Source: Acetobacteraceae bacterium (GTDB lineage Bacteria > Pseudomonadota > Alphaproteobacteria > Acetobacterales > Acetobacteraceae). From it: 64,000 nt of DNA. Shown here piece after piece: positions 22,303 to 42,646 of the stretch. The notes under the pieces were generated by a model. That model was not told the DNA's origin, did not search any database, and saw only the letters and a list, made by a program, of their open reading frames with translations. Location of the stretch: NCBI GenBank assembly GCA_947371015.1, contig CANBNK010000011.1, forward strand, positions 1 to 64,000, read 5' to 3'. Made by a program: the position numbers and the translations under genes. The stretch's first letter is position 1; each line of letters opens with the position of its first letter.

Positions 22303-22316
22303 GGGGAGAAGACGCG

Positions 22317-23561
22317 ATGAGCCAAACACAAAATAAGCCCGCCGGCTGGGGCCAGGGCGGCCTGACCGGTCGGGCGGCCGAACTGCGCCGCCGCTTCCCC
22401 ACCTTCCGCGAGTTGCAGGAACACGCGGAAACCCGCACGCCCAGCTTCGCCTACTGGTTCGCCGCCGGCGGCGCCGGCGACGGCGCACCCAACCACAGCC
22501 ACAACCGCGAAGCGATGGACGCGGTTCGCATCGTGCCGCGCTACGGCGTGGACGTCTCCCAGGTCAACACCACGGCGACGCTGTTCGGCCGCAGCTATGC
22601 GCTACCGGTCGGCGTGGCGCCCATGGGCAATATCGGCATGATCTGGCCGGAGATGGACGCCATCCTCGCCGCTGCGGCGCAGAAGGCGCGCATCCCCTAC
22701 GTTTCCTCCACTGTCGCCAATGTCGGCATGGAGCGGCTCGCGTCCCTGGCGCCGGATGTGTTCTGGTTCCAACTCTACGGCGTGCCGCGCGACAACCACG
22801 CCATCTCCTTCGACCTGGTACGCCGTGCCCAGGCTGTCGGCGCGCATGGCCTGATGCTGACGCTGGACGTGCCGGCGCGGCAGAAGCGCGTGCACGACAT
22901 CCGCAACGGCCTGGTGGTGCCGTTCAAGTTCCGCCCCGACGTGATCCTGGAGATCATGCGCCACCCGCGCTGGGCACTGCGCAGCCTGCGCCACGGTCAG
23001 CCGCGCTTCCCCAACCTGGCGAAGTATGTCGGCGGCAATCCGGGCGCGCAGGAGATCGCCGCCTTCGTGCAGCAGAACATGAACAGCGGCCTGACCTGGG
23101 AGGTGATCGCAAAGATCCGCGACATCTGGCAGGGCCCGCTGGTGGTCAAGGGCATCCAGCACCCCGAGGACGCCGAACTGGCGGTGCAACTCGGCTGCGA
23201 TGGCGTGCTGGTCTCCAACCATGGCGGCCGCCAATTCGATGCCGCGCCGGCCAGCATCGACACGTTGCCGGCCATCGCCGCGCAGCTTGCCGGCCGCGCC
23301 ACGGTGATGCTGGACAGCAGCGTCCGCAGCGGGTTGGACGTCACCCGCGCGCTGGCTGCCGGCGCGGATTTCTGCTTCTCCGGCCGCGCCTTCCTCTGGG
23401 CCGTGGCAGCGCTGGGGGAGGAAGGTGGCGACCACCAGACCGCGGCCTTCCTGGAAGAAGTACGCGGCACCTTCGCCCAATCCGGCGTGCGCAGCGTGGA
23501 GGAGGCTCAGCGCGCCACCATCCTGCACCCCAACGCCATCTGGCTGCAGCAGGGCAACTGA
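22317..23561 (+). CDS. FMN-dependent alpha-hydroxy-acid oxidizing protein
   Basis: This 414-residue TIM-barrel flavoprotein belongs to the glycolate oxidase / lactate / mandelate dehydrogenase family. It has PVGVAPMGNIGMIWPEMD, MLTLDVPARQKRVHDIRNG, the FMN-binding lysine in LVVKGIQHPEDAELAV, and the catalytic His302 in SNHGGRQFDAAPASID. The phosphate-binding DSSVRSGLDVTRALAAGADF follows. GGGGAGAAG precedes the ATG at 22317, 14 bases after the UbiD stop. In this operon it may oxidise a hydroxy-acid precursor of the acid that is later activated with CoA; that role is inferred. Confidence 0.9.
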   Translation: MSQTQNKPAGWGQGGLTGRAAELRRRFPTFRELQEHAETRTPSFAYWFAAGGAGDGAPNHSHNREAMDAVRIVPRYGVDVSQVNTTATLFGRSYALPVGVAPMGNIGMIWPEMDAILAAAAQKARIPYVSSTVANVGMERLASLAPDVFWFQLYGVPRDNHAISFDLVRRAQAVGAHGLMLTLDVPARQKRVHDIRNGLVVPFKFRPDVILEIMRHPRWALRSLRHGQPRFPNLAKYVGGNPGAQEIAAFVQQNMNSGLTWEVIAKIRDIWQGPLVVKGIQHPEDAELAVQLGCDGVLVSNHGGRQFDAAPASIDTLPAIAAQLAGRATVMLDSSVRSGLDVTRALAAGADFCFSGRAFLWAVAALGEEGGDHQTAAFLEEVRGTFAQSGVRSVEEAQRATILHPNAIWLQQGN

Positions 23562-23562
23562 C

Positions 23563-24201
23563 ATGGCCTGGGAACTCCGCCTGCTGGAAGACACCATGGC
23601 CGCCGGTGCCGCGCTGACGCTGCCGGCGCCGGATGTGTACAACCGCATCTGCTACGTCGTGCATGGCAGCGTCAGCGTGGGCGGCGAAATCTACGCCGAC
23701 GACAGCGCCTGGCACGGCAAGGGCGCCGCGACGCTGACCGCCGGTCCGCACGGCGCCGCGCTCTGGCGGTTCGAGCTGGTGCATGACGGCCGCGCGGTGA
23801 TCGCCTGCGAAGGCCGCACGCTGTTGAAGCTGAGCACGCCGGTCATGCTTGCGCCCGAGCTGCTGATGCGCTGCGACAGCGTTGCCTTCCCGGCCGGCGG
23901 CTGCGCCTTCCTGCACACCCACCAAGGCCCCGGCATCCGCTGCCTGATCGACGGCGGCATCCGCATCGACACCGATGGCCACAGCACCAGCTATGCCCCC
24001 GGCGCCGCCTGGTTCGAAGGCGGGCCGGAGCCGGTCTTCGCCCAGGCGGCCGACCGCCCCAGCCGCTTCATTCGCGTCATGGCGCTGCCGGCCGCGCTGC
24101 TCGGCACATCCTCCATCAGCTACGTCCGCGACGAAGACCGCAGCAAGCCGAAAAGCCAGAGCTACAAGGGGTTCGTCGATGTGCCCATCACGCTTGACTG
24201 A
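23563..24201 (+). CDS. Cupin-fold protein of unknown function
   Basis: A 212-residue protein starting one base after the preceding stop. A C-terminal double-stranded beta-helix signature is visible: FPAGGCAFLHTHQGPGIRCL supplies His residues, then DGGIRIDTDGHSTSYAPGAA and WFEGGPEPVFAQ. An N-terminal half (VVHGSVSVGGEIYADDSAWH) looks like a second, degenerate cupin. No catalytic assignment is possible; cupins in such operons may be dioxygenases, isomerases or binding proteins. The C-terminal YKGFVDVPITLD contains no further motif. The following tctC start lies 23 bases inside this gene. Confidence 0.75.
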   Translation: MAWELRLLEDTMAAGAALTLPAPDVYNRICYVVHGSVSVGGEIYADDSAWHGKGAATLTAGPHGAALWRFELVHDGRAVIACEGRTLLKLSTPVMLAPELLMRCDSVAFPAGGCAFLHTHQGPGIRCLIDGGIRIDTDGHSTSYAPGAAWFEGGPEPVFAQAADRPSRFIRVMALPAALLGTSSISYVRDEDRSKPKSQSYKGFVDVPITLD

Positions 24202-25186
24202 ACTACCCGCCACCGCGCCGGTCGCGCTCAGCCGCCGCGCCGCGCTGGCGCTGCCCTTCTTCGCCACCACCGCGCGGGCGCAGGCGGCATGGCCGGACCG
24301 CCCGGTGCGCTTCGTTGTGCCCTTTCCGCCCGGCAGCATCAGCGACGCCGTCGCCCGCATCCTGGCCGACCGGCTCGGCCCCACACTCGGCCAGCGCGTG
24401 GTGGTGGAAAACCGTGGCGGCGCGGCTGGCAATATCGGCGCGGCCTATGTCGCGCGAGAAGCGGCCGATGGCTACACCTTCGTCATCGCCTCCAGCGGCA
24501 CGCATGGCAGCAACCCGCCACTGTACCGCAATGTCGGCTATGACCCGGTGCGCGATTTCGCCCCGGTCATCGGCATGATCCGCGTGCCTAACGTGCTGGT
24601 GGTGCGCAACGCGCTGCCGGTGCGCTCCGTCGCCGAGTTCATCGCGCAAGCCAAAGCGCAAGACGGCAAGCTGACCTACGGCTCCATCGGCAATGGCAGC
24701 AGCCAGCATCTCGCCGGCACACAGTTCGAGCAACTCGCCAGCGTGAAGCTGACCCACGTGCCCTACCGCGCCGTGCCGCCGCTGCTGCTGGACATGCAGA
24801 GCGACCGGCTGGACGCCAGCTTCCAACTCGTCCCCAACGTGGTCGAGCAGGTGAAGGCCGGGCAGATCCGCGCGCTGGCCGTCACCGTCAACCACCGCGT
24901 GCCGGCGCTGGCGGAAGTGCCGACCATGGCCGAGGCTGGGCTGCGCGGCTACGAGACCGCCGGCTGGTTCGGCCTGCTCGGCCCCGCCGGCACGCCGGCG
25001 CCGATCATCCAGCGCCTGCACCAGGCCAGCGCCGCCATCCTCAACGCGCCGGAGATGCGCGCCCGGCTGGAAGCCCTGGGCACCGAGCCGATGCCGCTCG
25101 GCCCCGAGGAGTTCGCCAGCTTCATCGCCGCCGAATTGCCGCGCTGGGCCGAGATCGTCCGCCGCAGTGGCGCCACGGTGGACTAA
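24179..25186 (+). CDS. TctC/Bug family substrate-binding protein
   Basis: Periplasmic receptor of about 335 residues. Its N-terminus (VALSRRAALALPFFATTARAQ) is a signal peptide, followed by PDRPVRFVVPFPPGSISDAV, VVENRGGAAGNIGAAYVARE and YRAVPPLLLDMQSDRL. The ATG at 24179 gives a long N-region, and a TTG at 24194 is an alternative. It overlaps the cupin gene by 23 bases and shares one base with the next gene (TAATG). Within this operon it most plausibly captures the aromatic or furan acid destined for the molybdenum enzyme, though that is inference. Confidence 0.92.
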   Translation: MCPSRLTELPATAPVALSRRAALALPFFATTARAQAAWPDRPVRFVVPFPPGSISDAVARILADRLGPTLGQRVVVENRGGAAGNIGAAYVAREAADGYTFVIASSGTHGSNPPLYRNVGYDPVRDFAPVIGMIRVPNVLVVRNALPVRSVAEFIAQAKAQDGKLTYGSIGNGSSQHLAGTQFEQLASVKLTHVPYRAVPPLLLDMQSDRLDASFQLVPNVVEQVKAGQIRALAVTVNHRVPALAEVPTMAEAGLRGYETAGWFGLLGPAGTPAPIIQRLHQASAAILNAPEMRARLEALGTEPMPLGPEEFASFIAAELPRWAEIVRRSGATVD

Positions 25187-28116
25187 TGGATTCCCCGGGC
25201 GACAAATGGGTCGGCCAGTCGCTGCCGCGCTTTGAAGATGCAGCGCTGCTGACAGGCCGCGGCCGCTACTTCGACGACTGCGGCGCACCACCGGGCACGC
25301 TGCACGCCGCCATCCTGCGCAGCCCGCACGGCCATGCCCTGATCGAAGCGATCGACACCGCCGCCGCCCGCGCTTTGCCCGGCGTCGCCGCGGTACTGAC
25401 CGGCGAGGACATCCGCACCAGCACCACCAGCCTGGTCGTCGGCGTCAAGGCGCCGATGGAATGCTGGCCCATCGCGGTGGAGCGCGTGCGTTACGTCGGC
25501 GAACCCGTCGTGCTCGTCGTCGCCACCGACCGCTACGTCGCGGAAGACGCGCTGGACCTCATCGAGGTTCGCTACACCCCGCTCCCCGCCGTCACCGACC
25601 CCGTCGTCGCACTCACGCCCGAAGCGCCGGTGCTGCATGACGGCCTGAAGGGCAACCTGGCCAGCGAACGCCGCTTCCGCTACGGCGACCCCGAAGCCGC
25701 CTTCGCATCCGCCGCGCATCGCATCGCCATCGATGTCACCTATCCGCGCAGCGCCTGCACGCCCATCGAATGCTATGGCGTCCTGGCTGACTACGACCCG
25801 GGCGAGGACAGCTACGACGTCTTCGCCAACTTCCAGGGCCCGTTCAGCATCCACGCCGTCATCGCCCGTGCGCTCCGCGTGCCCGGCAATCGGCTGCGGC
25901 TGCGCACCCCGCCGGACAGCGGCGGCAGCTTCGGCGTCAAGCAGGGCGTCTTCCCCTACATCGTGCTGATGGCCGCCGCCGCCCGCGCCTGCGGCCGCCC
26001 GGTGAAATGGGTGGAGGACCGGCTGGAGCACCTGGCCGCCTCCTCCGTCGCCACCAACCGCGTCACGCGCCTGGAAGCCGCCGTCACCGCGGATGGCATC
26101 ATCACCGCGCTGGACTGGGACCAGTTGGAGGATTGCGGCGCGCACCTCCGCGCGCCGGAACCAGCCACCCTGTACCGCATGCACGGCAACATGACCGGTG
26201 CCTACGCCGTCCGCAATGTCGCCATCCGCAACCGCGTGGTGCTGACCAACAAGGCGCCCACCGGCCTCAACCGCGGCTTCGGTGGCCCACAGGTCTACTT
26301 CGCGCTGGAACGCCTGGTGCAGCGCATAGCCTTGACGCTGGGCCTGGACCCGCTCGACGTCATCCGCCGCAACCTGGTGCCCACTTCCGCCATGCCCTAC
26401 CGCACCGCGTCGGGCGCGCTGCTGGACAGCGGCGACTACGCCACGGCCATGGAGACCGCGCTGCGCGAGGGCCGCCACGACGAACTGCTCCGCCGCCGCG
26501 ACGCCGCCCGCGCGGAAGGCCGTCCCTACGGCATCGGCTACACCGCGGTGGTCGAACCCAGCGTCTCCAACATGGGCTACATCACCGCCGTCCTCACGCC
26601 GGCCGAACGCAAGCGCGCCGGCCCGAAGAACGGCGCCCAGGCCACCGCCACCATCCAGTGCGACGCGGTCGGCAGCGTCTCCGTCCATGTCGCCAGCGTG
26701 CCGCAGGGCCAGGGCCACCGTACCGTGCTGGCGCAGGTCGTCGCCGACGAACTCGGCCTGCGCCCGCAGGACATCCGCGTGGTCACCGACATCGACACCG
26801 CGAAGGACGCCTGGAGCATCGCCAGCGGCAATTATGCGAGTCGCTTCGCCCCTGCCGTCGCCGGTGTCGCCCGCATCGCCGCGCAGCAGCTGCGCACGCG
26901 CCTCCAGCGCATCGCCGCGCCGCTGCTGAACGTGCCGCCGGATGACGTGGTGCTGGCCCACGGCAAGCTGCACGCGCGCGGCAACGCGGACAACGCACTG
27001 CCTTTCGCCCGCGTCGCCAGCAGCCCGCACTGGGCGCCCGGCACCCTGCCCGCCGAGGACAGCGCGCCGCTGCGCGAAACCGCCTGGTGGACGCCACCCG
27101 AACTCACCGCGCCCACCGAAGCCGATGAGGTCAACTCCTCGCTCTGCCACGGCTTCATCTTCGATTTCTGCGGTGTCGAGGTGGACCGCGTCACCGGCCA
27201 GGTGCGCGTGGACAGGTACGTCACCATGCACGACTGCGGCACGGTGCTGCACCCCGGCATGGTCGCCGGCCAGGTCACCGGCGGCTTCGCCCACGCCCTC
27301 GGCGCCGCGCTGTATGAAGCGCACAGCTACGCGCCGGATGGCAGCTTCCAGACCGGCACCTTCGCCGACTACCTGGTGCCCACCGTGATGGAAGTGCCGG
27401 CACCGCTGATCCTGCACCACGAATCGCCCTCGCCCTTCACCCCCCTCGGCGCCAAGGGCGTCGGCGAGGGCAACTGCATGTCCACACCCGTCTGCATCGC
27501 CAATGCGGTGGCTGACGCGCTCGGCCTGCACGACGTATCACTGCCGCTGCTGCCCGCCACGCTAGCGCGCCATCTCCACGGCGCCGAACCTGGCGCGCCC
27601 GCCGTGGCACCGCCGCAAGGCGAACGCACGCTGCGCGGCGAAGGCGAAGCGCGCGTCGCCGCCCCGCGCGAGAAGGTCTGGGCCATGCTGCTCGACCCCG
27701 AGGCGCTGATGGCCATCATCCCCGGCGCGCATGCCATCCAGCGCACCTCCCCCACCGCATACCGCGCCGAGGTCACGCTCGGCATCGGGCCGGTCAAGGG
27801 CCGCTACCGCGTCACGCTCTCGCTCGCCGACCTGGACGAACCCAGCGCGCTCACGCTCTCCGGCAGCGCAGCCGGCGCGCTCGGTTTCGGCCAGGGCCGC
27901 GGCCAGGTCACGCTGCGGGAAGCCGATGGCAGCACCGTCATCGCCTACCACTACGAAGCGGCCGTCGGCGGCAAGGTCGCGAGCATCGCCGGCCGGCTGC
28001 TGGATGGCGCAACGCGCGTCATCATCGGCCAGTTCTTCGCCGCCCTAGCCCGCCAGGCGGCACCACGCCAGCCATGGTGGCAGCGCCTGCTGCACCGCCT
28101 GGGCCTGCACGCATGA
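25186..28116 (+). CDS. Molybdenum hydroxylase large subunit fused to CoxG/SRPBCC domain (2-furoyl-CoA dehydrogenase candidate)
   Basis: The first ~790 residues are a xanthine-dehydrogenase-family molybdopterin subunit. They open WVGQSLPRFEDAALLTGRGR and contain GGSFGVKQGVFPYIV and NRGFGGPQVYFALERLV. The catalytic Glu761 lies in KGVGEGN. From about residue 811 the chain continues into a second domain (GEARVAAPREKVWAMLLDPE, IIPGAHAIQ) like CoxG, the SRPBCC protein linked to CO dehydrogenase maturation. Fusing the two gives 976 residues against ~770-800 for the usual subunit. FAD and iron-sulfur subunits follow with overlapping starts, so the trio forms a heterotrimeric hydroxylase. The CoA ligase downstream points to an acyl-CoA substrate. 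Confidence 0.92.
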   Translation: MDSPGDKWVGQSLPRFEDAALLTGRGRYFDDCGAPPGTLHAAILRSPHGHALIEAIDTAAARALPGVAAVLTGEDIRTSTTSLVVGVKAPMECWPIAVERVRYVGEPVVLVVATDRYVAEDALDLIEVRYTPLPAVTDPVVALTPEAPVLHDGLKGNLASERRFRYGDPEAAFASAAHRIAIDVTYPRSACTPIECYGVLADYDPGEDSYDVFANFQGPFSIHAVIARALRVPGNRLRLRTPPDSGGSFGVKQGVFPYIVLMAAAARACGRPVKWVEDRLEHLAASSVATNRVTRLEAAVTADGIITALDWDQLEDCGAHLRAPEPATLYRMHGNMTGAYAVRNVAIRNRVVLTNKAPTGLNRGFGGPQVYFALERLVQRIALTLGLDPLDVIRRNLVPTSAMPYRTASGALLDSGDYATAMETALREGRHDELLRRRDAARAEGRPYGIGYTAVVEPSVSNMGYITAVLTPAERKRAGPKNGAQATATIQCDAVGSVSVHVASVPQGQGHRTVLAQVVADELGLRPQDIRVVTDIDTAKDAWSIASGNYASRFAPAVAGVARIAAQQLRTRLQRIAAPLLNVPPDDVVLAHGKLHARGNADNALPFARVASSPHWAPGTLPAEDSAPLRETAWWTPPELTAPTEADEVNSSLCHGFIFDFCGVEVDRVTGQVRVDRYVTMHDCGTVLHPGMVAGQVTGGFAHALGAALYEAHSYAPDGSFQTGTFADYLVPTVMEVPAPLILHHESPSPFTPLGAKGVGEGNCMSTPVCIANAVADALGLHDVSLPLLPATLARHLHGAEPGAPAVAPPQGERTLRGEGEARVAAPREKVWAMLLDPEALMAIIPGAHAIQRTSPTAYRAEVTLGIGPVKGRYRVTLSLADLDEPSALTLSGSAAGALGFGQGRGQVTLREADGSTVIAYHYEAAVGGKVASIAGRLLDGATRVIIGQFFAALARQAAPRQPWWQRLLHRLGLHA

Positions 28117-28928
28117 AGCCGCCGAAATTCGACTACGTCAGCGCCGAAACCCTGGACGAAGCGCTGGCCACGCTGCGCGCCGAGGGCGAGGGCGCCCGCA
28201 TCATCGCCGGCGGCCAGTCGCTGCTGCCCATGCTGAACATGCGCCTGGCGCGGCCCGCCGTGCTGGTGGACATCATGCGCATCGCCGCGCTGGCGGAAAC
28301 CACGAAGCAGAACGGCACACTGCGCATCGGCGCCGGCGTGCGCCAGGCCACGCTGCAGGCGCACCCCAACCTGCATCCACTGCTGGCCGCTGCGCTGCCC
28401 TGGGTCGGCCACGCGCAAACCCGCAGCCGCGGCACGCTCTGCGGCAGCGTCGCCCATGCCGACCCCAGCGCGGAAATCCCGTTGGTGCTGCTGGCGCTGC
28501 AAGGCGACATCCTGCTGCGTTCCGCCCGTCGCACCCGCCGCGTTGCCGCCGCGGATTTCTTCATCGGCATGATGCAGACCGCGCGGCAGGAGGACGAACT
28601 GATCGAGGCCATCTGCCTGCCGCAACCGCGCCCCGGCGAAGGTTACGCCTTCCGCGAAGTTGGCCGCCGCCATGGCGACTTCGCCATCGTCGCCTGCGCC
28701 GCCGTCGCGCACGAAGCCGGCGTGCGCCTGGCCATCGGTGGCGTCGCCGACCACCCCGCCGCGCGCGACTTGCCTGCCGATAGCGCGCACTGGCCGGAGG
28801 CGCTGGACGCCTTTGCCCACGCCCTGCCCGCACGCGACGACTTGCACGCCACCGCCGAGTACCGCCGCCAACTGGTCCGCAAGCTCGGCCACCAGGTGAT
28901 GCAGGAGGCCGCCGCATGCCGCGCCTGA
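28113..28928 (+). CDS. FAD-binding (medium) subunit of molybdenum hydroxylase
   Basis: CoxM-type subunit, 271 residues, passing electrons between the iron-sulfur centres and the acceptor. FAD-binding segments are visible: IIAGGQSLLPMLNMRLARP and the second motif TRSRGTLCGSVAHADPSAEI. The C-terminal VGRRHGDFAIVACAAVA is also typical. The N-terminal PPKFDYVSAETLDEALATL fits the family start. Its ATG overlaps the large-subunit stop (ATGA), and the small subunit begins inside its last codons. Length is slightly short (usual ~280-290). Confidence 0.94.
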   Translation: MKPPKFDYVSAETLDEALATLRAEGEGARIIAGGQSLLPMLNMRLARPAVLVDIMRIAALAETTKQNGTLRIGAGVRQATLQAHPNLHPLLAAALPWVGHAQTRSRGTLCGSVAHADPSAEIPLVLLALQGDILLRSARRTRRVAAADFFIGMMQTARQEDELIEAICLPQPRPGEGYAFREVGRRHGDFAIVACAAVAHEAGVRLAIGGVADHPAARDLPADSAHWPEALDAFAHALPARDDLHATAEYRRQLVRKLGHQVMQEAAACRA

Positions 28929-29422
28929 GCGCCGCGCAACGCCACACCATCCGCTTCACCCTGAACGGCCAGCCGGTGCAGGGTGAAGCCGAGCCGCGCC
29001 TGCTGCTGACGGATTTCCTGCGCCATGTGCTGGGTGCCACCGGCACGCATGTCGGTTGCGAACACGGCGTCTGCGGCGCCTGCACGGTGCAGATCGATGG
29101 CTCGCCCGCGCGCGCCTGCCTGACGCTGGCGGTGCAGGTGGAAGGCTCCGACATCCGCACCGTCGAAGCCCTGGCACCGGCACCAGGTCGCCTGTCCATT
29201 TTGCAGGAAGCCTTCCGCCGCCACCACGCGCTGCAATGCGGCTTCTGCACTGCGGGCATCCTGATGTCGCTCGACGCCTTCCTCCGCGCCCAACCGGATG
29301 CCGACGAGGCTGCGCTGCGCGACCTGCTCTCCGGCCACCTCTGCCGCTGCACCGGCTACGCGCCGATTATCGCCGCGGCGTTGGATGCCGCGGCACGCCT
29401 GCGGGAGACCGCCCATGCTTGA
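28916..29422 (+). CDS. [2Fe-2S] small subunit of molybdenum hydroxylase
   Basis: CoxS-type subunit, 168 residues, with two [2Fe-2S] clusters. The plant-ferredoxin-like cluster uses Cys48, Cys53, Cys56 and Cys68 (GCEHGVCGACTVQ). The C-terminal four-helix cluster uses Cys108, Cys111, Cys143 and Cys145 (CGFCTAGILMS and LCRCTGYAPI). It starts 13 bases before the FAD-subunit stop and overlaps the acyl-CoA synthetase start by eight bases. With the other two subunits it makes a hydroxylase of the CO-dehydrogenase / 4-hydroxybenzoyl-CoA reductase / furoyl-CoA dehydrogenase type. Confidence 0.96.
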   Translation: MPRLSAAQRHTIRFTLNGQPVQGEAEPRLLLTDFLRHVLGATGTHVGCEHGVCGACTVQIDGSPARACLTLAVQVEGSDIRTVEALAPAPGRLSILQEAFRRHHALQCGFCTAGILMSLDAFLRAQPDADEAALRDLLSGHLCRCTGYAPIIAAALDAAARLRETAHA

Positions 29423-30932
29423 CCTCGGCACCAGCTTCCTCGCCAGCGTCGAACGCACACCGCGTGCGCTGGCCATCGTCGATGGCGACCTCCGCCTCAG
29501 CTACGCCGAATGGTATCCTCGCGTTTCCGCCGTCGTCGCCGGGCTGCATCGGCTTGGCCTGCAACGCGGCGACCACCTGCTGACCGTGCTGCAGAATCGC
29601 TGGCAGGCGGCGACGCTGCACTGGGCCTGCCAGTTCGCCGGCATCATCATCACGCCGCTCAACTGGCGCGCCAAGGCAGACGAGATCGACTACGCCATCG
29701 CCGATGCCGAGGCGCGCGCTGTGGTATTCGAAGCCGTCTCCGCCGAGGCCACGCGCGCCACCCGCGCCATCCCGCGCATCACGCTGGACGAGGCACTCCC
29801 CGAGGAAACCAGCTTCGCCACTCTCCTCGCAGCCGCCGCCCCGCCCGCGCAGCCGCAGGCCAACGCGGAAGACTGGTCGGTGATGCTCTACACCTCCGGC
29901 ACCACCTCCCGCCCCAAGGGCGTGCCGCGCCGCCACCGCGCCGAACGCGCCGCCGCCATCGCGCATGTCGCGCAGAACCTTTACGGCGCGGATGAATGCA
30001 CGCTGGGCGTCATGCCGCTCTACCACACCATGGGCGTGCGCAGCCTGCTGGCCATGGCCTGCATCGGCGGCGCCTTCATCTGCCAGCCGCGCTTCGACGT
30101 CGCTGAAGCCCTGCGCCTGATCGAACAGGAACGCATCACCAACCTCTACCTCGTCCCCACGCTGTACCACGACGTGCTGCACCACCCCGCCTTCGCCAGC
30201 ACCGATGTCTCCAGCGTGCGCAAACTCGGCTTCGCCGGCGCCAGCATGACGGACGGGTTGCTGCGCGACCTCACCGCCGCCTTCCGCCCGGACCTCTTCG
30301 TCAACCACTACGGCAGCAGCGAGATCTACACCTTCACGGTGGACCAGAACGCCCCGCTGAAACCCGGCAGCGCCGGCCGCGCCGGCCTCAACCAACGCAT
30401 CCGCGTCGTGCACCTCGGCACGTCAACGCCAGCCGAACCTGGCCAGGAAGGTGAGATCATCGCCTCTCTGGCCGGCGACGAAAGCTTCGAGGGCTATTGG
30501 CGCCGCCCCGAAGCCGACGCGAAGTCGCTGCGCGACGGCTGGTACCACACCGGCGACACCGGCTTCTTCGACAGCGATGGCGACCTCTTCGTCACGGGAC
30601 GCGTGGACGACATGATCATCACCGGCGGCGAGAACGTCTCCCCGGTCGAAATCGAATCCTGCCTGTCGCTGCATCCCGCGGTCGCCGAAGTCGCCGTCGT
30701 CGGCCTGCCGGATGAGCGCTGGGGCAAGGTCGTCGCCGCCTTCATCGCCCGCCGCGCAGCCTGCACGCAAGCCGAGCTGGACGCGCATTGCCGGGCCGCC
30801 GGCCTGGCCAATTTCAAGCGCCCGCGGCGCTATGTCTTCGTGGCCGAAGTGCCGCGGTCGCCAGTAGGGAAACTGCTGCGCCGCAAGCTGGTGGAAGGCG
30901 ACTATCGCCCCGCCGAACAGGAGAGTGAGTGA
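29415..30932 (+). CDS. Acyl-CoA synthetase, AMP-forming (2-furoyl-CoA synthetase candidate)
   Basis: This enzyme activates a carboxylic acid to its CoA thioester through an acyl-adenylate. The 505-residue protein has the P-loop-like motif YTSGTTSRPKGVPR, the A5-type motif NHYGSSEIYTF and YHTGDTGFF. The hinge GRVDDMIITGGENVSPVEIE and the catalytic lysine region RSPVGKLLRRKL complete the set. In this operon the likely substrate is the heteroaromatic acid left by the UbiD enzyme, hence furoate. Benzoate- or cyclohexanecarboxylate-like acids remain possible. The ATG at 29415 lies inside the small-subunit gene. Confidence 0.92.
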   Translation: MLDLGTSFLASVERTPRALAIVDGDLRLSYAEWYPRVSAVVAGLHRLGLQRGDHLLTVLQNRWQAATLHWACQFAGIIITPLNWRAKADEIDYAIADAEARAVVFEAVSAEATRATRAIPRITLDEALPEETSFATLLAAAAPPAQPQANAEDWSVMLYTSGTTSRPKGVPRRHRAERAAAIAHVAQNLYGADECTLGVMPLYHTMGVRSLLAMACIGGAFICQPRFDVAEALRLIEQERITNLYLVPTLYHDVLHHPAFASTDVSSVRKLGFAGASMTDGLLRDLTAAFRPDLFVNHYGSSEIYTFTVDQNAPLKPGSAGRAGLNQRIRVVHLGTSTPAEPGQEGEIIASLAGDESFEGYWRRPEADAKSLRDGWYHTGDTGFFDSDGDLFVTGRVDDMIITGGENVSPVEIESCLSLHPAVAEVAVVGLPDERWGKVVAAFIARRAACTQAELDAHCRAAGLANFKRPRRYVFVAEVPRSPVGKLLRRKLVEGDYRPAEQESE

Positions 30933-31708
30933 TGAGCGCCTTCGACAAGCTGGACGGTTTCCGCGTGGAGGTGGCCGGCCCGCGCGCCGACATCATCCTG
31001 CATCGCCCGCCGCTGAACGTCATCCACATGCCGCAGCGCGACCAACTGCGAAAAGTGTTCGAGGCACTGGACGAGGATGACAGCGTCCGCGTCATCGTCC
31101 TGCGGGCGGAAGGCGAGCACTTCTCCTCCGGCGGCTACATCATGGGGTTCCTGGAAAGCACGCCGGAAGTCGTCTCCAAGCTGGCCTGGAACATGGCCGC
31201 GCCGGCGCGCTGCTCCAAGCCGGTCATCGCCGCAAATCGCGGTTATACGTTCGGCGTCGGCTTCGAGATCAGCCTCGCCTGCGACTTCCGCCTGTGTTCG
31301 GAAACCACGCAATACGCGTTGCCGGAACAGCAGCTCGGCCAAATCCCCGGCTCCGGCGGCTCCGCCCGCCTGCAGAAAATCGTCGGCATCACCCGCACCA
31401 AGGACATCGTGATGCGCAGCCGTCGCATCGCGGCGAAGCAGGCGCTGGACTGGGGCATCGCTACCGATGTCGTGCCCGACGACCAGCTGGAAACCGCCAC
31501 CGATGCGCTGGTGAAGGAGCTCCTCCGCTTCGCCCCGCTCGCCCAGCGCACTGCCAAAAAACTGCTGAACGACACCGAGGACGCTTCGCTGTCGATCTCG
31601 ATCGAACTCGAAGGCCACGCCTATTCGCGGCTGCGGTCGTCGGAAGACTTCGCCGAGGGCGTCAAGGCGTTCCACGAAAAGCGCAAGCCAAACTGGCAAG
31701 GGCGCTGA
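30932..31708 (+). CDS. Enoyl-CoA hydratase/isomerase family protein (2-oxoglutaroyl-CoA hydrolase candidate)
   Basis: A crotonase-fold enzyme of 258 residues. Visible are the oxyanion-hole region LRAEGEHFSSGGYIMGF, the second half AANRGYTFGVGFEISLACDF, and PEQQLGQIPGSGGSARLQ with a Glu where hydratases keep their catalytic acid. In the Hmf route a crotonase-family protein opens the hydroxylated furan ring and hydrolyses 2-oxoglutaroyl-CoA, and this gene sits exactly where that step would be expected, last after the synthetase. Start and preceding stop share one base (TGATG). The 3' end overlaps the convergent TIGR02444 gene by 47 bases. Confidence 0.88.
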   Translation: MSAFDKLDGFRVEVAGPRADIILHRPPLNVIHMPQRDQLRKVFEALDEDDSVRVIVLRAEGEHFSSGGYIMGFLESTPEVVSKLAWNMAAPARCSKPVIAANRGYTFGVGFEISLACDFRLCSETTQYALPEQQLGQIPGSGGSARLQKIVGITRTKDIVMRSRRIAAKQALDWGIATDVVPDDQLETATDALVKELLRFAPLAQRTAKKLLNDTEDASLSISIELEGHAYSRLRSSEDFAEGVKAFHEKRKPNWQGR

Positions 31709-33273: not shown

Positions 33274-33340
33274 GTATCCCGACAATAGCGGCGCCAACCC
33301 GAACAGGGCTAGGCTGCGCGAACAAATGGGCGGAGCGGGC

Positions 33341-35269
33341 ATGGAAGGCATTATCCCCATGGCAGGGCGTGACGCGGCGGCGACCCTGCCCGCCGTCGTA
33401 TCGGCCGCCCGCTTCCACCGCTTCGGCGGCCCCGACGTGCTGGTGCTGGAAGACCTGCCCCTGGCCCCGCCCGCCGCCGGGGAGGCCCTGGTTGCCGTCC
33501 ACGCCGCCTCGATCAACCCGTCCGACGCCAAGAACGTCGCCGGCCGCATGCGCCAGACCACCCCGCCCCGCACCCCCGGCCGCGACTTCGCCGGCACCGT
33601 CCTCGCCGGCCCGGCCGAATGGCTGGGCGCCGAGGTCTGGGGCACCGGCGGCGACCTGGGCTTCACGCGGGATGGCAGCCACGCCCAGCTGCTGGGCCTG
33701 CCCGTCGCCGCCCTGGCCCGCAAGCCAACCAACCTAAGCTTCGCCCAGGCCGGCTCGGTCGGCGTCAACTATGTCACCGCCGCGCTGGGCCTGGACTACG
33801 CCGCGCTGCAACCTGGCGAGACCGTCCTCGTCCTCGGCGCCAGTGGCGGTGTCGGCGGCGCCGCCTGCGCCATCGCCCGGCAACGCGGCGCCACCGTCAT
33901 CGCCGCCCAGCGCGGCCGCCCTGCGCCGGACCAGACAGCCGCGCAAACCGCGCACCGCTTCATCGACCTCAACGTCATCTCCCCCGGTGAGGCGATCCAG
34001 GCCCTCACCGGCAATCGCGGCGTGGACGTGGTTTTCGATTGTGTCGGCAACATCCCGCTGACCTCCAGCGCCATGGGCGTGCTGGCCATGCGCGGCCGCG
34101 TCGTCGTCATCGCCGGCACGCCGGGCGAAAAGCTCGGCCTGGAACTCATCCCCTTCTACCGCAAGGAAGCCCGGCTGATTGGCGTGGACAGCCTGAAGCG
34201 CGGCGCCGCCGAATGCGCCACCTTGCTGGAAGCGCTGCGCCCCGGCTTCGAGTCCGGCGCCTTCCCCGCCCCAACCATCGCCCACAGCTTCCCGCTGGAG
34301 CAGGCGCGCCAGGCCTACACCCTGGTGAACCGCGGCACCCGCGGCCGCGTCATCCTCACGCCAAACCCCATCCGCGGGCCTTCGCCAGACCCCATCCGCA
34401 TCGCAGGAGCCCCCGCCATGCCCGACACCCACGTCACCTACACCGACGCCAACCTGACCGAAGCCGTGCTGGCCCGCATCCAGCCGGACGTGAACCCGCG
34501 CACGAAGGAGATCATGACCGCGTTGCTGAAGCACGCGCACGCCTTCGTCCGCGACGTCAAGCTGACCCCGGCCGAATGGGATGCCGGCATCAAGTACCTC
34601 TCGGCCATGGGCCCCTTCGTCACCGACAAGCGCAATGAGTGGATCCTGCTCTCCGACGTTACCGGCGTGACCATGCTGGTGGACGCCATCACCCATGCCA
34701 GCAGCGAAGGCGTCACCGAAACCACCGTCCTCGGCCCGTTCCACCGCGAAAACCCACCGGTGCTGGGCAATGGCGACAACATCGCCCCCGGCCTGGTCGG
34801 TGAGATGCTGGAAGTCCGCGTCGTCATCGCCGACGCCGCCGGCAAGCCGATCCAGGGCGCCCAGGTGGATGTCTGGCACGCCGACAAGGATGGCGGCTAC
34901 GACAGCCAGATCGGCGACGGCAACACCCACATGATGCGCGGCCGCTTCGTGACGGGTGCGGATGGCGTGGTCCACTTCTGGACCGTGAACCCCAGCTGCT
35001 ACCCGGTCCCACATGACGGCCCGGCCGGCCAGGTCCTCGCCGCCATGGGCCGCGGCCCGATGCGCCCCGCGCATGTCCACTTCTGGATCAAGGCGCCTGG
35101 CTACCGCGACCTGATCACCCACATCTTCGCCGATGGCGACAAGTACCTGTACGAGGACGCGGTCTTCGGCGTGAAGGCCAGCCTGGTGGTGAACTTCGAA
35201 GCGAAGCGGAAGGCCGGCACCAGCGACCACCTGGAGCTGGAGTACGAGTTCCGCATCCCGAAGGCCTGA
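33341..35269 (+). CDS. MDR quinone-oxidoreductase-like protein in frame with intradiol ring-cleavage dioxygenase
   Basis: One uninterrupted frame of 642 residues holds two enzymes. Residues 1-345 are a medium-chain reductase: FHRFGGPDVLVLEDLPLAPP, the NADPH motif GASGGVGGAACAIA at about 166, and VVFDCVGNIPLTSSAM. Residues 360-642, beginning MPDTHVTYTDANLTEAVLAR, are an intradiol dioxygenase with iron ligands Tyr520, Tyr554, His578 and His580 (RPAHVHF). This spacing is close to hydroxyquinol/catechol 1,2-dioxygenases. The linker (about 346-359) is Pro-rich with no stop. A ribosome-binding site precedes Met360, so the dioxygenase may also be made alone. The start ATG 33341 has GGAG nearby. Confidence 0.88.
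   Translation: MEGIIPMAGRDAAATLPAVVSAARFHRFGGPDVLVLEDLPLAPPAAGEALVAVHAASINPSDAKNVAGRMRQTTPPRTPGRDFAGTVLAGPAEWLGAEVWGTGGDLGFTRDGSHAQLLGLPVAALARKPTNLSFAQAGSVGVNYVTAALGLDYAALQPGETVLVLGASGGVGGAACAIARQRGATVIAAQRGRPAPDQTAAQTAHRFIDLNVISPGEAIQALTGNRGVDVVFDCVGNIPLTSSAMGVLAMRGRVVVIAGTPGEKLGLELIPFYRKEARLIGVDSLKRGAAECATLLEALRPGFESGAFPAPTIAHSFPLEQARQAYTLVNRGTRGRVILTPNPIRGPSPDPIRIAGAPAMPDTHVTYTDANLTEAVLARIQPDVNPRTKEIMTALLKHAHAFVRDVKLTPAEWDAGIKYLSAMGPFVTDKRNEWILLSDVTGVTMLVDAITHASSEGVTETTVLGPFHRENPPVLGNGDNIAPGLVGEMLEVRVVIADAAGKPIQGAQVDVWHADKDGGYDSQIGDGNTHMMRGRFVTGADGVVHFWTVNPSCYPVPHDGPAGQVLAAMGRGPMRPAHVHFWIKAPGYRDLITHIFADGDKYLYEDAVFGVKASLVVNFEAKRKAGTSDHLELEYEFRIPKA
34405..34409 (+). promoter_or_regulatory. 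Internal Shine-Dalgarno for a separate dioxygenase start
   Basis: AGGAG lies eight bases before an in-frame ATG at 34418, inside the long MDR-dioxygenase frame. It would allow independent translation of the 283-residue intradiol dioxygenase. This makes two readings possible: a recently lost stop codon between two genes, or a fusion with an additional internal product. Confidence 0.6.
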
Positions 35270-35271
35270 GC

Positions 35272-36249
35272 ATGCCGGCCGCCCCCTCCCGCCGCATGCT
35301 GCTGGCCGCCCTGGCGGCGCCCGCGGTGGCCCGCGCGCAGCCGGCCTGGCCCACCCAGTCCATCTCGCTGGTCATCCCCTTCGCCCCCGGCGGCCCGACC
35401 GACGCGGTCGCCCGCCTGATGGCCGAGTCGCTGGGCCGCGACCTCGGCCAGAACGTGGTGGTGGAGAACGCCGCCGGCGGCGGCGGCACCATCGGCGCGC
35501 TGCGCGTGGCCCAGGCCCGGCCGGACGGCCACACCCTGCTGCTGCACAATATCGGCATGGCCACCGCGCCGGCGCTGTATCGCCGGCTGCCTTACGACCC
35601 CGTGGCGGATTTTGAGTGCATCGGCCTGATCACCCCGGTGCCCATGGTCTGGGTCGCCCGACCAGACTTCCCGGCGCGGGAATTCGCTGGCGCCATCGCC
35701 CATATCCGCCGGCACCGCGAAGGCGTGAACCTGGCCCATGCCGGCCTCGGCTCCGGCTCGCAGCTCTGCGGCACGCTGCTGCAGGCCCAGCTTCACGCGC
35801 CGATGACCGCCATCGTGTTCCGCGGCACCGGCCCGATCTACCCGGAGCTGCTGGCCAACCGGGTGGACCTGGTCTGCGACCAGACCACCGGCGCCATCCC
35901 GCAGATCGCCGGCGGCAAGGTCCACGCCCTGGCCGTCGCCTCGGCCCAGCGGCTGCCGCAGCTGCCTGATGTCCCCACCGCCGCCGAGGCCGGGCTGCCG
36001 GGCTTCGAGGTCACCATCTGGCACGGCCTCTACGCGCCAAAGGGCACACCGCCGGCCATCATCGCCCGCGCCAACCAGGCCCTGCGCGCCAGCCTGGCGG
36101 ACCCGCGGGTGGTCCGCCGGCTGGGCGAACTCGGCGCCAGCCCGGAGCCGATGGAGCGGGTGACGCCCGCCGCCCACCGCGCCTACCTGGTCAGCGAGAT
36201 CGCCCGCTGGCGCCCGCTGCTGCAAGCCGCCGGCGAATACGCGGACTGA
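35272..36249 (+). CDS. TctC/Bug family substrate-binding protein
   Basis: Periplasmic receptor, 325 residues: signal peptide MPAAPSRRMLLAALAAPAVA, then PTQSISLVIPFAPGGPTDAV, VVENAAGGGGTIGALRVAQ, FRGTGPIYPELLANRVDLV and PTAAEAGLPGFEVTIWHG. It starts two bases after the dioxygenase stop, so the ring-cleavage module carries its own receptor. A dihydroxy- or trihydroxy-aromatic acid or related compound is a reasonable ligand guess, but the sequence does not show it. Confidence 0.92.
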   Translation: MPAAPSRRMLLAALAAPAVARAQPAWPTQSISLVIPFAPGGPTDAVARLMAESLGRDLGQNVVVENAAGGGGTIGALRVAQARPDGHTLLLHNIGMATAPALYRRLPYDPVADFECIGLITPVPMVWVARPDFPAREFAGAIAHIRRHREGVNLAHAGLGSGSQLCGTLLQAQLHAPMTAIVFRGTGPIYPELLANRVDLVCDQTTGAIPQIAGGKVHALAVASAQRLPQLPDVPTAAEAGLPGFEVTIWHGLYAPKGTPPAIIARANQALRASLADPRVVRRLGELGASPEPMERVTPAAHRAYLVSEIARWRPLLQAAGEYAD

Positions 36250-36348: not shown

Positions 36349-37356
36349 ATGCGCAATCCCGGCGGCCAGAAGGGTCACCACCACGCCAGCGAGGCCAGCC
36401 TGGCCTTCCTCGACCAGGCTGAACTCGAACTGCGCTCGGCGCTCGGCATCTCCCGCCCCTCCGCGTCGTCTTCGACGTCGGACGCCGCGATGCGTGCATC
36501 GTCGGCCTCCGCGTCGCTTGCGACGTCGGACGCCGCGTCGTCTTCGACGTCGGCAGCCGCGCCACCGTCGCCCACGCCTGCCATGCCAGCCGCCGGGCTA
36601 TCTGCGGCGTTGCCAGCCGCCCAGCCGTCGCGCGCCACGCCCGCGCTGCCACTGTTGCCGCCCGAGCCAGCGGAAGCCGCCCCCCCTCCCGGCTATCTCG
36701 GCCACCGCGCCCGCATGCGAGAAAAACTGCTCAAGGCCGGCCCGGACGCGCTGCTGGACCACGAGATGCTGGAGATGGTCCTGTTCCTCGCCCTGCCGCG
36801 GCGAGACACCAAGCCCATCGCCAAGGCGCTGCTCGCCCGCTGCGGCAGCTTCGCCAACGCCATCGCCGCCCCGGTGGAGGAACTGCGCCGGATCGAGGGC
36901 CTGGGCGATGCCGGCCTGGCCGCGCTGAAGCTGGTGCAGGGCGCCGCGCTGCGCCTCCAGGCCGCCGAGGTGCTGGACAAGCCGCTGCTGAACAACTGGG
37001 ACCGCCTGCTGGCCTATCTCAACGCCAGCCTGGCGCGCGAACGGATCGAGCAGTTCCACGTCCTCTACCTGGACAGCAAGAACCGCCTGATCGCCGACGA
37101 GGCCCAGGCCCGCGGCACCGTCAACCACACGCCGGTCTATCCGCGGGAGATCGTCAAGCGCGCGCTGGAACTGCACGCCACGGCGCTGATCCTGGTGCAC
37201 AACCACCCAAGCGGCGACCCGACGCCAAGCCGCGCCGATATCGAGATGACCACGGCCATAAAGCAGGCCGCCGCGGTACTGGAGATCGTGCTGCACGACC
37301 ACCTGATCGTCGGCAATGGGCGCCATCTGTCGCTGCGGCGCGAAGGCCTGTTGTAG
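36349..37356 (+). CDS. radC: RadC family JAB/JAMM-domain protein with extended N-terminus
   Basis: RadC-family proteins carry a JAMM metalloprotease-like domain and, despite the name, have no proven repair role. The 335-residue product has helix-hairpin-helix-like sequence (RIEGLGDAGLAALKLVQ) and the JAMM ligands His284, His286 and Asp297 in HNHPSGDPTPSRAD. The family core begins at GYLGHRARMREKL, about residue 114. Before it lies an unusual Ser/Ala/Thr/Pro-rich stretch of roughly 110 residues, part of it encoded by short DNA repeats. The start ATG 36349 follows GGGAACGGGG. Confidence 0.9.
   Translation: MRNPGGQKGHHHASEASLAFLDQAELELRSALGISRPSASSSTSDAAMRASSASASLATSDAASSSTSAAAPPSPTPAMPAAGLSAALPAAQPSRATPALPLLPPEPAEAAPPPGYLGHRARMREKLLKAGPDALLDHEMLEMVLFLALPRRDTKPIAKALLARCGSFANAIAAPVEELRRIEGLGDAGLAALKLVQGAALRLQAAEVLDKPLLNNWDRLLAYLNASLARERIEQFHVLYLDSKNRLIADEAQARGTVNHTPVYPREIVKRALELHATALILVHNHPSGDPTPSRADIEMTTAIKQAAAVLEIVLHDHLIVGNGRHLSLRREGLL
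36463..36562 (+). repeat. Short imperfect direct repeats inside radC N-terminal region
   Basis: The core CGACGTCGG recurs three times in about 90 bases, each followed by a GCCGCG-type sequence. A longer unit, CGTCGTCTTCGACGTCGG, occurs twice. The repeats are translated as Ser/Ala/Thr-rich sequence (SSSTSDAA, LATSDAAS, SSSTSAAA). This suggests expansion by replication slippage rather than a conserved domain. Confidence 0.75.
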
Positions 37357-39157: not shown

Positions 39158-39856
39158 CTAGCCGCCGAAACGCGGCGTCGCCGGGGCCTGCACCACCAGC
39201 GCCGGCACCTGCTGCAGCGCCGCATGGCCATTGCCATACTTGGCCCAGAGGTGGGTGCTGTCCTCATAGACCATCTTCGCGCCGATCCAGACGATCAGGG
39301 CGACGCCGATATAGGCCAGCACCGGGAACTTCTCGAGCAGCTTGGAGATCAGCGTCGCCGCCACGCCCATCAGCAGGATCGAGATGATCAGGCCGATGAT
39401 CAGCATGTTCATGTTGCCCGCCGCCGCGCCGGCCACCGCCAGCACGTTGTCGAGGCTCATGGACACGTCGGCGACCACGATCTGCCACAGCGCCTGCGCC
39501 ATGGTCTTCTCCTCGGCGTGGTGCGTCGGGTCGTGGGCGTCGGCGTCCTTCTGCCGCAGTTCCTTGTAGAAGCCATAGGCGATCCACAGCAGCAGCAGCC
39601 CGCCGATCAGCATCAGGCCCGGGATGGTCAGCAGGTACACCGCGGCCAGGCTGAGCACGATGCGCAGCACCACCGCCAGCACCATGCCGAACATGATGGC
39701 CTTGCTGCGCTTGTCGGGCGGCAGGCCGGCGGCGGCCAGCGCGATCAGCACGGCGTTGTCGCCGGAGAGGATGATGTTCACGCCCAGGATCGTGGCGAGC
39801 GTCGCCCAATCGAAGTTCTGCATGATCGAGTCGAGGCTTAGGGCGGACAGGTCCAT
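39158..39856 (-). CDS. TerC family integral membrane protein (YjbE/YkoY type)
   Basis: A 232-residue protein with about seven hydrophobic segments and two copies of the TerC acidic motif in membrane helices: GVNIILSGDNAVLIALAAAG and VADVSMSLDNVLAVAGAAA. TerC proteins have been implicated in metal (manganese) export and in tellurium resistance; this member's ion is not known. The hydrophilic loop DADAHDPTHHAEEK is rich in Asp and His, fitting metal handling. It is the second of two tandem TerC genes, followed immediately by a lipoprotein gene. Confidence 0.92.
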   Translation of the reverse strand: MDLSALSLDSIMQNFDWATLATILGVNIILSGDNAVLIALAAAGLPPDKRSKAIMFGMVLAVVLRIVLSLAAVYLLTIPGLMLIGGLLLLWIAYGFYKELRQKDADAHDPTHHAEEKTMAQALWQIVVADVSMSLDNVLAVAGAAAGNMNMLIIGLIISILLMGVAATLISKLLEKFPVLAYIGVALIVWIGAKMVYEDSTHLWAKYGNGHAALQQVPALVVQAPATPRFGG

Positions 39857-39940
39857 GCGGGCGCTCCGGGCGAGTTGGGACGTTTCTGGGCGTGGGGCCG
39901 GGATTCGGCCCGCGCGACCCTATTGGACCGTCCCGCCCCT

Positions 39941-39970
39941 GTGAAGCGTGAACCGTATGTCACGCTTCAC
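39941..39970. other. Perfect 11-base-arm hairpin between two terC genes
   Basis: Arms GTGAAGCGTGA (39941-39951) and TCACGCTTCAC (39960-39970) are exact complements around an eight-base loop. On the minus strand it lies 22 bases after the stop of the first terC gene and about 85 bases before the second. It may end the first transcript or bind a regulator of the second. I looked for a manganese (yybP-ykoY) riboswitch and saw no convincing match. Confidence 0.65.
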
Positions 39971-39992
39971 TGTCCCGTCTGGCGCCCTCGTG

Positions 39993-40754
39993 TCACCCCA
40001 CGCGACGAAGTGGTAAGGTTACCGCCCGCGCAACCCAGGCGAGTGCACCCACCTGGCCGACCGTCGCCGCCGCCCAGATCCAGGGCGGGAACAAGGCCGG
40101 CTGCGCCAGGTAGCCCAGCGGCAGCAGCAGCCAGCCGTAGGAGCCAGGCACCTTATCGGCCACCTCATGCGTACCCTCCCAGACCATGTCGCCGGCGACG
40201 TACAGAATCATCGCCAGGCCCAGCCAGCCAATCCAGCGGTGCCGTTCCAGCAACCCGGCGATCAGGTTCGCCGCCACGCCCATCAGCAGCACCGAAATGG
40301 CCAGGCCGATGACCATCACCTCGACATGGTCCTTGGCCACGCCGGCCACCGCCAGCACGTTGTCCAGGCTCATGGAGACGTCGGCCGCCAGGATGGTCAG
40401 CACCGCCTGGCCCAGCGTCTTCGGCGCGGCGGTCGCTGCCGTGCCGTGATCGGCGGTACCGGAGCGGCGCAACTCGGCGAACATCTTCCAGCACACCCAC
40501 AGCAGCAGAAGGCCGCCGGCCAGGGTCACGCCGACAATCGCCAGCAACTGCGTGGTAACGGCGGCAAAGCCAATCCGCATGACCGTGGCGGCACCGATTC
40601 CCCACAGGATCGCCTGGCGCCGCTGGGCCGGCGGCAACCCTGCCGCGGCCATGCCGACGATGATGGCGTTGTCGCCGGCCAGGACGACATCGATGAACAA
40701 GACCTGGGCCAGTGGGATCAACCAATCCGGGACCAGCAAGTCCGGCATCAGCAT
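39993..40754 (-). CDS. TerC family integral membrane protein (second copy)
   Basis: A 253-residue paralog of the next gene, with the same acidic intramembrane motifs (DVVLAGDNAIIVGMAAAG and AADVSMSLDNVLAVAGVA). It has seven or so hydrophobic helices, and a C-terminal extension (WLLLPLGYLAQPALFPPWI) adds a further membrane segment. The internal loop is shorter and lacks the His/Asp-rich stretch of its neighbour. Together the two may make different complexes or export different ions. The start at 40754 has GAGGAG upstream; the divergent purB begins about 170 bases away. Confidence 0.9.
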   Translation of the reverse strand: MLMPDLLVPDWLIPLAQVLFIDVVLAGDNAIIVGMAAAGLPPAQRRQAILWGIGAATVMRIGFAAVTTQLLAIVGVTLAGGLLLLWVCWKMFAELRRSGTADHGTAATAAPKTLGQAVLTILAADVSMSLDNVLAVAGVAKDHVEVMVIGLAISVLLMGVAANLIAGLLERHRWIGWLGLAMILYVAGDMVWEGTHEVADKVPGSYGWLLLPLGYLAQPALFPPWIWAAATVGQVGALAWVARAVTLPLRRVG

Positions 40755-42400: not shown

Positions 42401-42646
42401 ATGCAATCGCTCAGGATCGTTCTGGCCGCGACCGCCATGGCGCTGCCGCTGCTGGCCCTGGCACCAGCCGAGGCGCAGGCCCAGTATTATGGCAAGGGCG
42501 GCTACTACGCCCCGCCCCCGCCGCCACCGCCGCCCTACTACTACCGGCCACCGCCGCCGCCGCTGCCCTACTACTACCGCCCGGCGCCCCCGCCGCCGCC
42601 CTACTGGTACCGGCCGCACCACCACCACTGGGGCCGGCGCTGGTAG
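42401..42646 (+). CDS. Small secreted Pro/Tyr/His-rich protein
   Basis: An 81-residue protein with a clear signal peptide (MQSLRIVLAATAMALPLLAL then APAEAQA) and a mature part made almost wholly of proline, tyrosine and a few arginines (APPPPPPPPYYYRPPPPP, LPYYYRPAPPPPPYWYRP). The tail is HHHHWGRRW. Strong ribosome-binding site AAGGAGGAGG. Such low-complexity envelope proteins are common in Acetobacteraceae, and the His cluster could bind metal. No defined function. Confidence 0.75.
   Translation: MQSLRIVLAATAMALPLLALAPAEAQAQYYGKGGYYAPPPPPPPPYYYRPPPPPLPYYYRPAPPPPPYWYRPHHHHWGRRW

Follow-up and report, generated by a model that had tools for sequence, protein, structure and literature searches.

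A single open reading frame in the 64,000-nucleotide stretch of Acetobacteraceae DNA analysed here (the window) encodes an MDR reductase followed by an intradiol dioxygenase, and comparison with related genomes makes it likely that two adjacent operon genes were fused by loss of a stop codon and have since been maintained as one bifunctional catabolic gene. Stop loss is indicated as the origin because outgroups keep two genes with a stop codon between them; the fusion is read as maintained, and not as an error, because, in five genomes, the two halves have stayed in frame while the linker between them changed length repeatedly. A preliminary description of this DNA had offered as alternatives a true two-enzyme protein and two genes that had lost the stop between them, and these observations lend support to each. 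The retained AGGAG and ATG of the dioxygenase fit a third possibility that had only been hinted at there, namely that both products would come from the one gene.

An open frame joining a reductase to a dioxygenase

As previously stated, the reductase frame runs into the dioxygenase without a stop: positions 33341-35269 form one frame of 642 codons, from an ATG to a terminal TGA, with no internal stop codon. The other features first described were recovered as well. The linker (NPIRGPSPDPIRIAGAPA, amino acids 342-359) is Pro-rich, with 5 Pro among 18 residues; AGGAG (34405-34409) lies eight bases before the dioxygenase ATG (34418); the nucleotide motif of the reductase is GASGGVGG (AxxGxxG) at residues 166-173; and Tyr520, Tyr554, His578 and His580 are present under these numbers. 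Pfam domains were assigned at residues 46-339 (ADH_N, ADH_zinc_N and ADH_zinc_N_2), 385-457 (Dioxygenase_N) and 487-639 (Dioxygenase_C), and the calculated masses are 67.6 kDa for the fusion, 30.9 kDa for the dioxygenase and 35.4 kDa for residues 1-345. A scan for sigma-70 promoters and terminators around the fused gene found none. The AlphaFold model of the fusion has a mean pLDDT of 63.7, with values below 50 at residues 343-372 (the linker region), and was judged too weak for claims about an interface or from fold searches. Because the window has a G+C content of 70.1% and is rich in spurious ORFs (for example, one of 588 aa on the opposite strand), the open 54-nt linker is by itself little evidence; it is the comparative evidence, not the open frame, that places the fusion beyond chance.

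Table 1. Positions of the fused gene, its parts and the following gene in the window
Feature	Position	Strand	Remarks
Fused ORF, MDR reductase + linker + intradiol dioxygenase	33341..35269	+	642 aa, 67.6 kDa; in-frame homologues in 4 more genomes
GGAG, likely Shine-Dalgarno of the fused gene (ATG at 33341)	33332..33335	+	anti-SD duplex -6.2 kcal/mol
MDR (zeta-crystallin/QOR-like) reductase domain, aa 1-341	33341..34363	+	AxxGxxG nucleotide motif at aa 166-173
Interdomain linker NPIRGPSPDPIRIAGAPA, aa 342-359	34364..34417	+	10-42 aa among relatives, frame always kept
Partial 24-nt duplication, ACCCCATCCGC at 34365-34375 and 34389-34399	34365..34399	+	same period as the L037/L039 arrays
Internal Shine-Dalgarno AGGAG	34405..34409	+	8 nt ahead of dioxygenase ATG 34418
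Hydroxyquinol 1,2-dioxygenase-like domain from own ATG (Met360)	34418..35269	+	ligands Tyr520, Tyr554, His578, His580
TctC-type (Bug) solute-binding protein gene	35272..36249	+	2 nt past the fused gene; outgroup operons also have a following TctC gene

Enzyme families and genomic context

The reductase half, with its ADH_N and ADH_zinc_N domains and AxxGxxG motif, belongs to the MDR superfamily, and its closest families are the PIG3/quinone oxidoreductases. As it scores 127 bits against the 296.8-bit cut-off of the PIG3 model TIGR02824, and lies below every listed NCBIfam curated cut-off, we file it only as an MDR protein, QOR-like. The dioxygenase half belongs to its family by both domains, Dioxygenase_N (94 bits; cut-off 27) and Dioxygenase_C (124.5 bits; cut-off 27.3), and its four iron ligands, two Tyr and two His, align with Tyr and His of 1TMX. 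Its closest solved relatives are hydroxyquinol 1,2-dioxygenases (1TMX, E 2.8e-73; 8R2X; PnpC, 3N9T); the five best chains, all hydroxyquinol-type, PnpC or unnamed intradiol enzymes, rank above every catechol enzyme, and the scores are far under the cut-offs of the catechol and chlorocatechol models. By sequence, the dioxygenase half is nearer to hydroxyquinol than to catechol enzymes. The reductase half has a dN/dS of about 0.21-0.26 within the genus and the dioxygenase half one of 0.07-0.16, values indicating that both domains are under purifying selection; on account of the former we regard the reductase half as a working protein.

In outgroups the two genes stand in an operon of the order MDR - dioxygenase - YCII (in most) - BKACE - SDR - TctC, with a divergent LacI regulator. 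The fused genus lacks the BKACE neighbour, and only the TctC gene (35272) still follows, as a probable operon partner of the fused gene. BKACEs take the acetyl portion from a beta-keto acid and transfer it to acetyl-CoA (PMC6365646). NCBIfam has a 3-oxoadipate-specific BKACE, and the BKACE of the outgroup operon, at 154 bits against a cut-off of 350, is therefore unassigned to that model. A search of the window's genome for a BKACE of the operon type found only a different BKACE type.

From these families we infer a coherent route, in which hydroxyquinol would be converted to maleylacetate by the dioxygenase, to 3-oxoadipate by the MDR protein acting as an ene-reductase, and to succinyl-CoA and acetoacetate by BKACE. 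The dioxygenase would thus act on a hydroxyquinol-like ring and open it, giving a maleylacetate-like product whose C=C bond the reductase, as one option, would reduce, standing in for the usual iron-dependent maleylacetate reductase. A quinone-reductase role ahead of ring opening is nearly as likely as the maleylacetate route: the reductase would then convert hydroxybenzoquinone to hydroxyquinol before the dioxygenase acts. We give this order of events serious, if somewhat lesser, weight; it agrees with the nearest families being quinone oxidoreductases, but MDR family names do not determine substrate. Returning to the maleylacetate route, a search of this genome for an iron-type maleylacetate reductase gave three Fe-ADH-related matches, one of which (L073) is weakly similar to maleylacetate reductases and could supply that activity from elsewhere in the genome. 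L073 2370-3530 (contig C37 of G000, the window's genome) encodes this iron-containing dehydrogenase, beside what is by eye a Rieske-type oxygenase pair.

Upstream of the fused gene, with minus-strand genes between, the plus strand of the window at 20911-31705 carries genes for a UbiD decarboxylase, an FMN-dependent dehydrogenase, a TctC-type protein, a Mo-hydroxylase with FAD and 2Fe-2S subunits, a CoA ligase and an enoyl-CoA hydratase, which likely form an aromatic or heteroaromatic catabolic operon. Within it, the large subunit of the Mo-hydroxylase is joined to a CoxG domain (25186-28116). Elsewhere in the window, two adjoining minus-strand genes (39158-40754) encode similar membrane proteins, TerC-like by eye, with a repeated SGDNA/AGDNA motif.

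Fused, separate and reductase-less loci

Relatives were compared by tblastn of both halves, and three locus states were seen. The fused state, with no stop at the junction, was found in five of the six genomes of the window's genus in the collection (G000, G001, G003, G004 and G005), which come from separate assemblies (MAGs where named); the copy in G001 is truncated by the contig end. In the separate state, found at 14 loci (L044-L055, L057 and L013) of Falsiroseomonas, Roseomonas, other Acetobacteraceae and the genus of G010, the reductase stop is followed by 12-31 nt, a Shine-Dalgarno sequence and the dioxygenase. The comparison of this junction among related genomes, which the preliminary description had proposed, therefore gives five fused genomes in the genus and 14 stop-separated pairs in the outgroups. 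The third state, a dioxygenase without the reductase, was found in G002 (L040), Rhodovarius (L041, L042) and Siccirubricoccus (L043). At the last locus (Siccirubricoccus sp. G192, L043 4911-5001) the ATG of the dioxygenase overlaps a stop codon, that of an upstream frame whose end, GRVVLTMSTSEETP, is like the reductase end; no reductase was found there despite this frame, which is possibly a reductase remnant. More distant MDR relatives (about 50% identity) occur without a neighbouring dioxygenase. Among the strong matches listed (E <= 1e-70 or better) in 299 family, 385 class and 398 phylum genomes, no fusion was found outside the genus, to which the fusion is confined as far as sampled.

The ancestral order would accordingly have been that of the separate loci: reductase, stop, 12-31 nt, Shine-Dalgarno, dioxygenase. 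In the genus the stop is lost and the spacer has turned into an in-frame linker of variable length, with the Shine-Dalgarno and ATG of the dioxygenase persisting.

G002 bears on the order of these events. It keeps the 5' region and start of the reductase (ACGGGCATGGCA..ATGGTTCAG, as in L056), but the remnant frame is 33 codons long to a TGA, and the dioxygenase ATG lies 26 nt further on, out of frame. Judged from this structure, the reductase was deleted in place, and the dioxygenase of G002 evidently starts at its own ATG. The TGA found at the former junction may be the ancestral stop or one that arose later. In trees from concatenated purL, purB, the dioxygenase and one neighbouring gene, a topology in which G002 branches before all fused genomes was rejected by the AU test (p 0.0009 for DNA, 0.0085 for protein), with 0.066 in the protein SH test; single-gene trees of the dioxygenase did not resolve the position of G002. 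Because the trees reject G002 as the first branch, two histories are left: a fusion ancestral to the genus, after which G002 reverted to the internal start, or two separate losses of the stop.

The probable internal start of the dioxygenase

The AGGAG and the dioxygenase ATG are kept in all six genomes of the genus. The predicted duplex of this internal Shine-Dalgarno has -6.6 kcal/mol in the window, a value equalled or bettered at 4.4% of random positions; in four genomes the duplex is about as strong as the one at the first start of the fused gene, and in the fifth it is stronger. As proof of an internal start, Shine-Dalgarno strength was rejected because four of the five fused genomes have a stronger SD-like sequence at a second in-frame ATG, 96 nt further downstream. 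The conserved run at the junction, 13 identical codons, is the third longest in the gene and not significant (permutation P 0.36), so that conservation alone does not establish selection on the internal start. A weak hairpin over the internal Shine-Dalgarno and ATG is predicted in four fused genomes (z -0.4 to -2.8); in the window, GCAUCGCAGGAGCCCCCGCCAUGC (34398-34421) could pair the internal start codon, with z -1.4 for the local stretch. This hairpin was set aside: it is weak, being identical in the four genomes it offers no covariation, and it is absent in G001 and G002.

That only the fused protein is made, the AGGAG and ATG being a functionless relic of the ancestral dioxygenase start, seems to us rather unlikely. 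Such a relic would explain why the duplex is weaker than many of those of the outgroup dioxygenases (-8 to -11.7), why a weak hairpin masks the site in four genomes and why the conserved run is not significant alone. However, both elements have been kept in every genome amid a rebuilt linker, and G002, which is nested among fused lineages, evidently depends on that very ATG. We therefore favour a retained internal start that is probably usable and from which, plausibly, a dioxygenase-only product of ~31 kDa is made from the same mRNA as the ~68-kDa fusion. Ribosomes starting at 33341 would produce the latter, an NAD(P)H-dependent quinone/enone-type reductase flexibly linked to a hydroxyquinol-type intradiol dioxygenase; the former would come from a fraction of ribosomes that start at 34418.

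Linker changes and maintenance of the joined frame

The linkers measure 18 (G000), 10 (G001), 40 (G003), 42 (G004) and 13 (G005) residues, all in frame and free of stops, and thus differ only by multiples of three nucleotides. Those of G003 (L037) and G004 (L039) carry 3.6-copy arrays of two different 24-nt units. That the linker derives from a dispersed repeat was rejected, as the linker 14-mer CGCGGGCCTTCGCC occurs in this genome only once, at the junction. Two other tandem repeats were noticed in the window: a 24/48-nt repeat (36458-36561), which lies in the N-terminal, Ser/Ala-rich part of a RadC-like gene and shares the 24-nt period of the linker arrays but differs in sequence, and a 33-nt repeat of 3.5 copies (42502-42615; CTACTACTACCGGCCACCGCCG...).

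The junction is in frame in 5/5 fused genomes of the genus versus 4/14 outgroup pairs (Fisher P 0.011, a value that is indicative only, since it ignores the relatedness of the rows and since slippage by 24 nt is itself a multiple of three). The outgroup spacers occupy all three relative frames (4, 3 and 7 of the 14). At L044, where the two genes are separate and in different frames, the dioxygenase frame nevertheless stays open for 357 codons upstream. In the genus the joined frame has outlasted several rebuildings of the linker, and the fusion is read as maintained. It is improbable, in our judgement, that the two enzymes are separate in practice, the joined frame being a neutral accident or the fusion being cut in its linker after translation. 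Stop-free spacers are indeed common at high G+C, and the linker is Pro/Ala/Ser-rich, variable and of low confidence in the structural model, but neutrality would lead one to expect drift of the frame, and five linkers of differing length have all stayed in frame, unlike the outgroup spacers; cleavage, for its part, is compatible with the sequence. A sequencing or assembly error that erased the stop codon in this genome is refuted for practical purposes by the open junctions, with different linker sequences, in four relatives.

Taken together, these comparisons argue for stop loss followed by maintenance of the fused gene. More speculatively, one gene might yield, at a fixed ratio, both a free dioxygenase from the internal start and a tethered reductase-dioxygenase through which an unstable intermediate of ring cleavage is channelled, with the MDR protein replacing the iron-dependent maleylacetate reductase and the minisatellite linker altering the spacing of the domains; we regard this fuller scheme as doubtful. 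The related genomes present the stages before, during and after: separate genes, fusions with varied linkers, and secondary loss of one half. This small system makes it possible to test both the benefit of tethering consecutive catabolic enzymes and whether a fused bacterial gene still makes its old second protein from an internal start, and the reductase half is a candidate MDR-type replacement for maleylacetate reductase.

Comparison with known systems

The enzyme families are ordinary and common, and the fused architecture is apparently undescribed, as no description of a reductase-dioxygenase fusion was found in the open literature searched. The reductase half shares the ADH_N and ADH_zinc_N layout and the AxxGxxG motif with PIG3/zeta-crystallin-type NAD(P)H quinone oxidoreductases (PDB 1YB5), from which it differs in scoring below their curated cut-off and in being joined to a dioxygenase. 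The likeness of the other half to hydroxyquinol 1,2-dioxygenase (1TMX), 6-chlorohydroxyquinol dioxygenase (8R2X) and PnpC (3N9T) is near full-length and includes Dioxygenase_N and the two-Tyr, two-His ligands; those enzymes, however, are stand-alone proteins, whereas here the dioxygenase is the C-terminal half of a fusion and its substrate is predicted. The unfused MDR and dioxygenase pair of the Falsiroseomonas/Roseomonas type resembles the fusion in gene order, mostly at 60-67% identity, and differs in its stop codon and 12-31-nt spacer and in an operon that adds YCII (in most), BKACE and SDR, absent beside the fusion. Finally, bacterial genes are known in which an in-frame internal start gives a short product besides the full-length one. 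The fused gene is like them in having a second Shine-Dalgarno and ATG within a longer ORF, in the same frame; it differs in that its internal start once served a separate enzyme gene, and its short form is putative.
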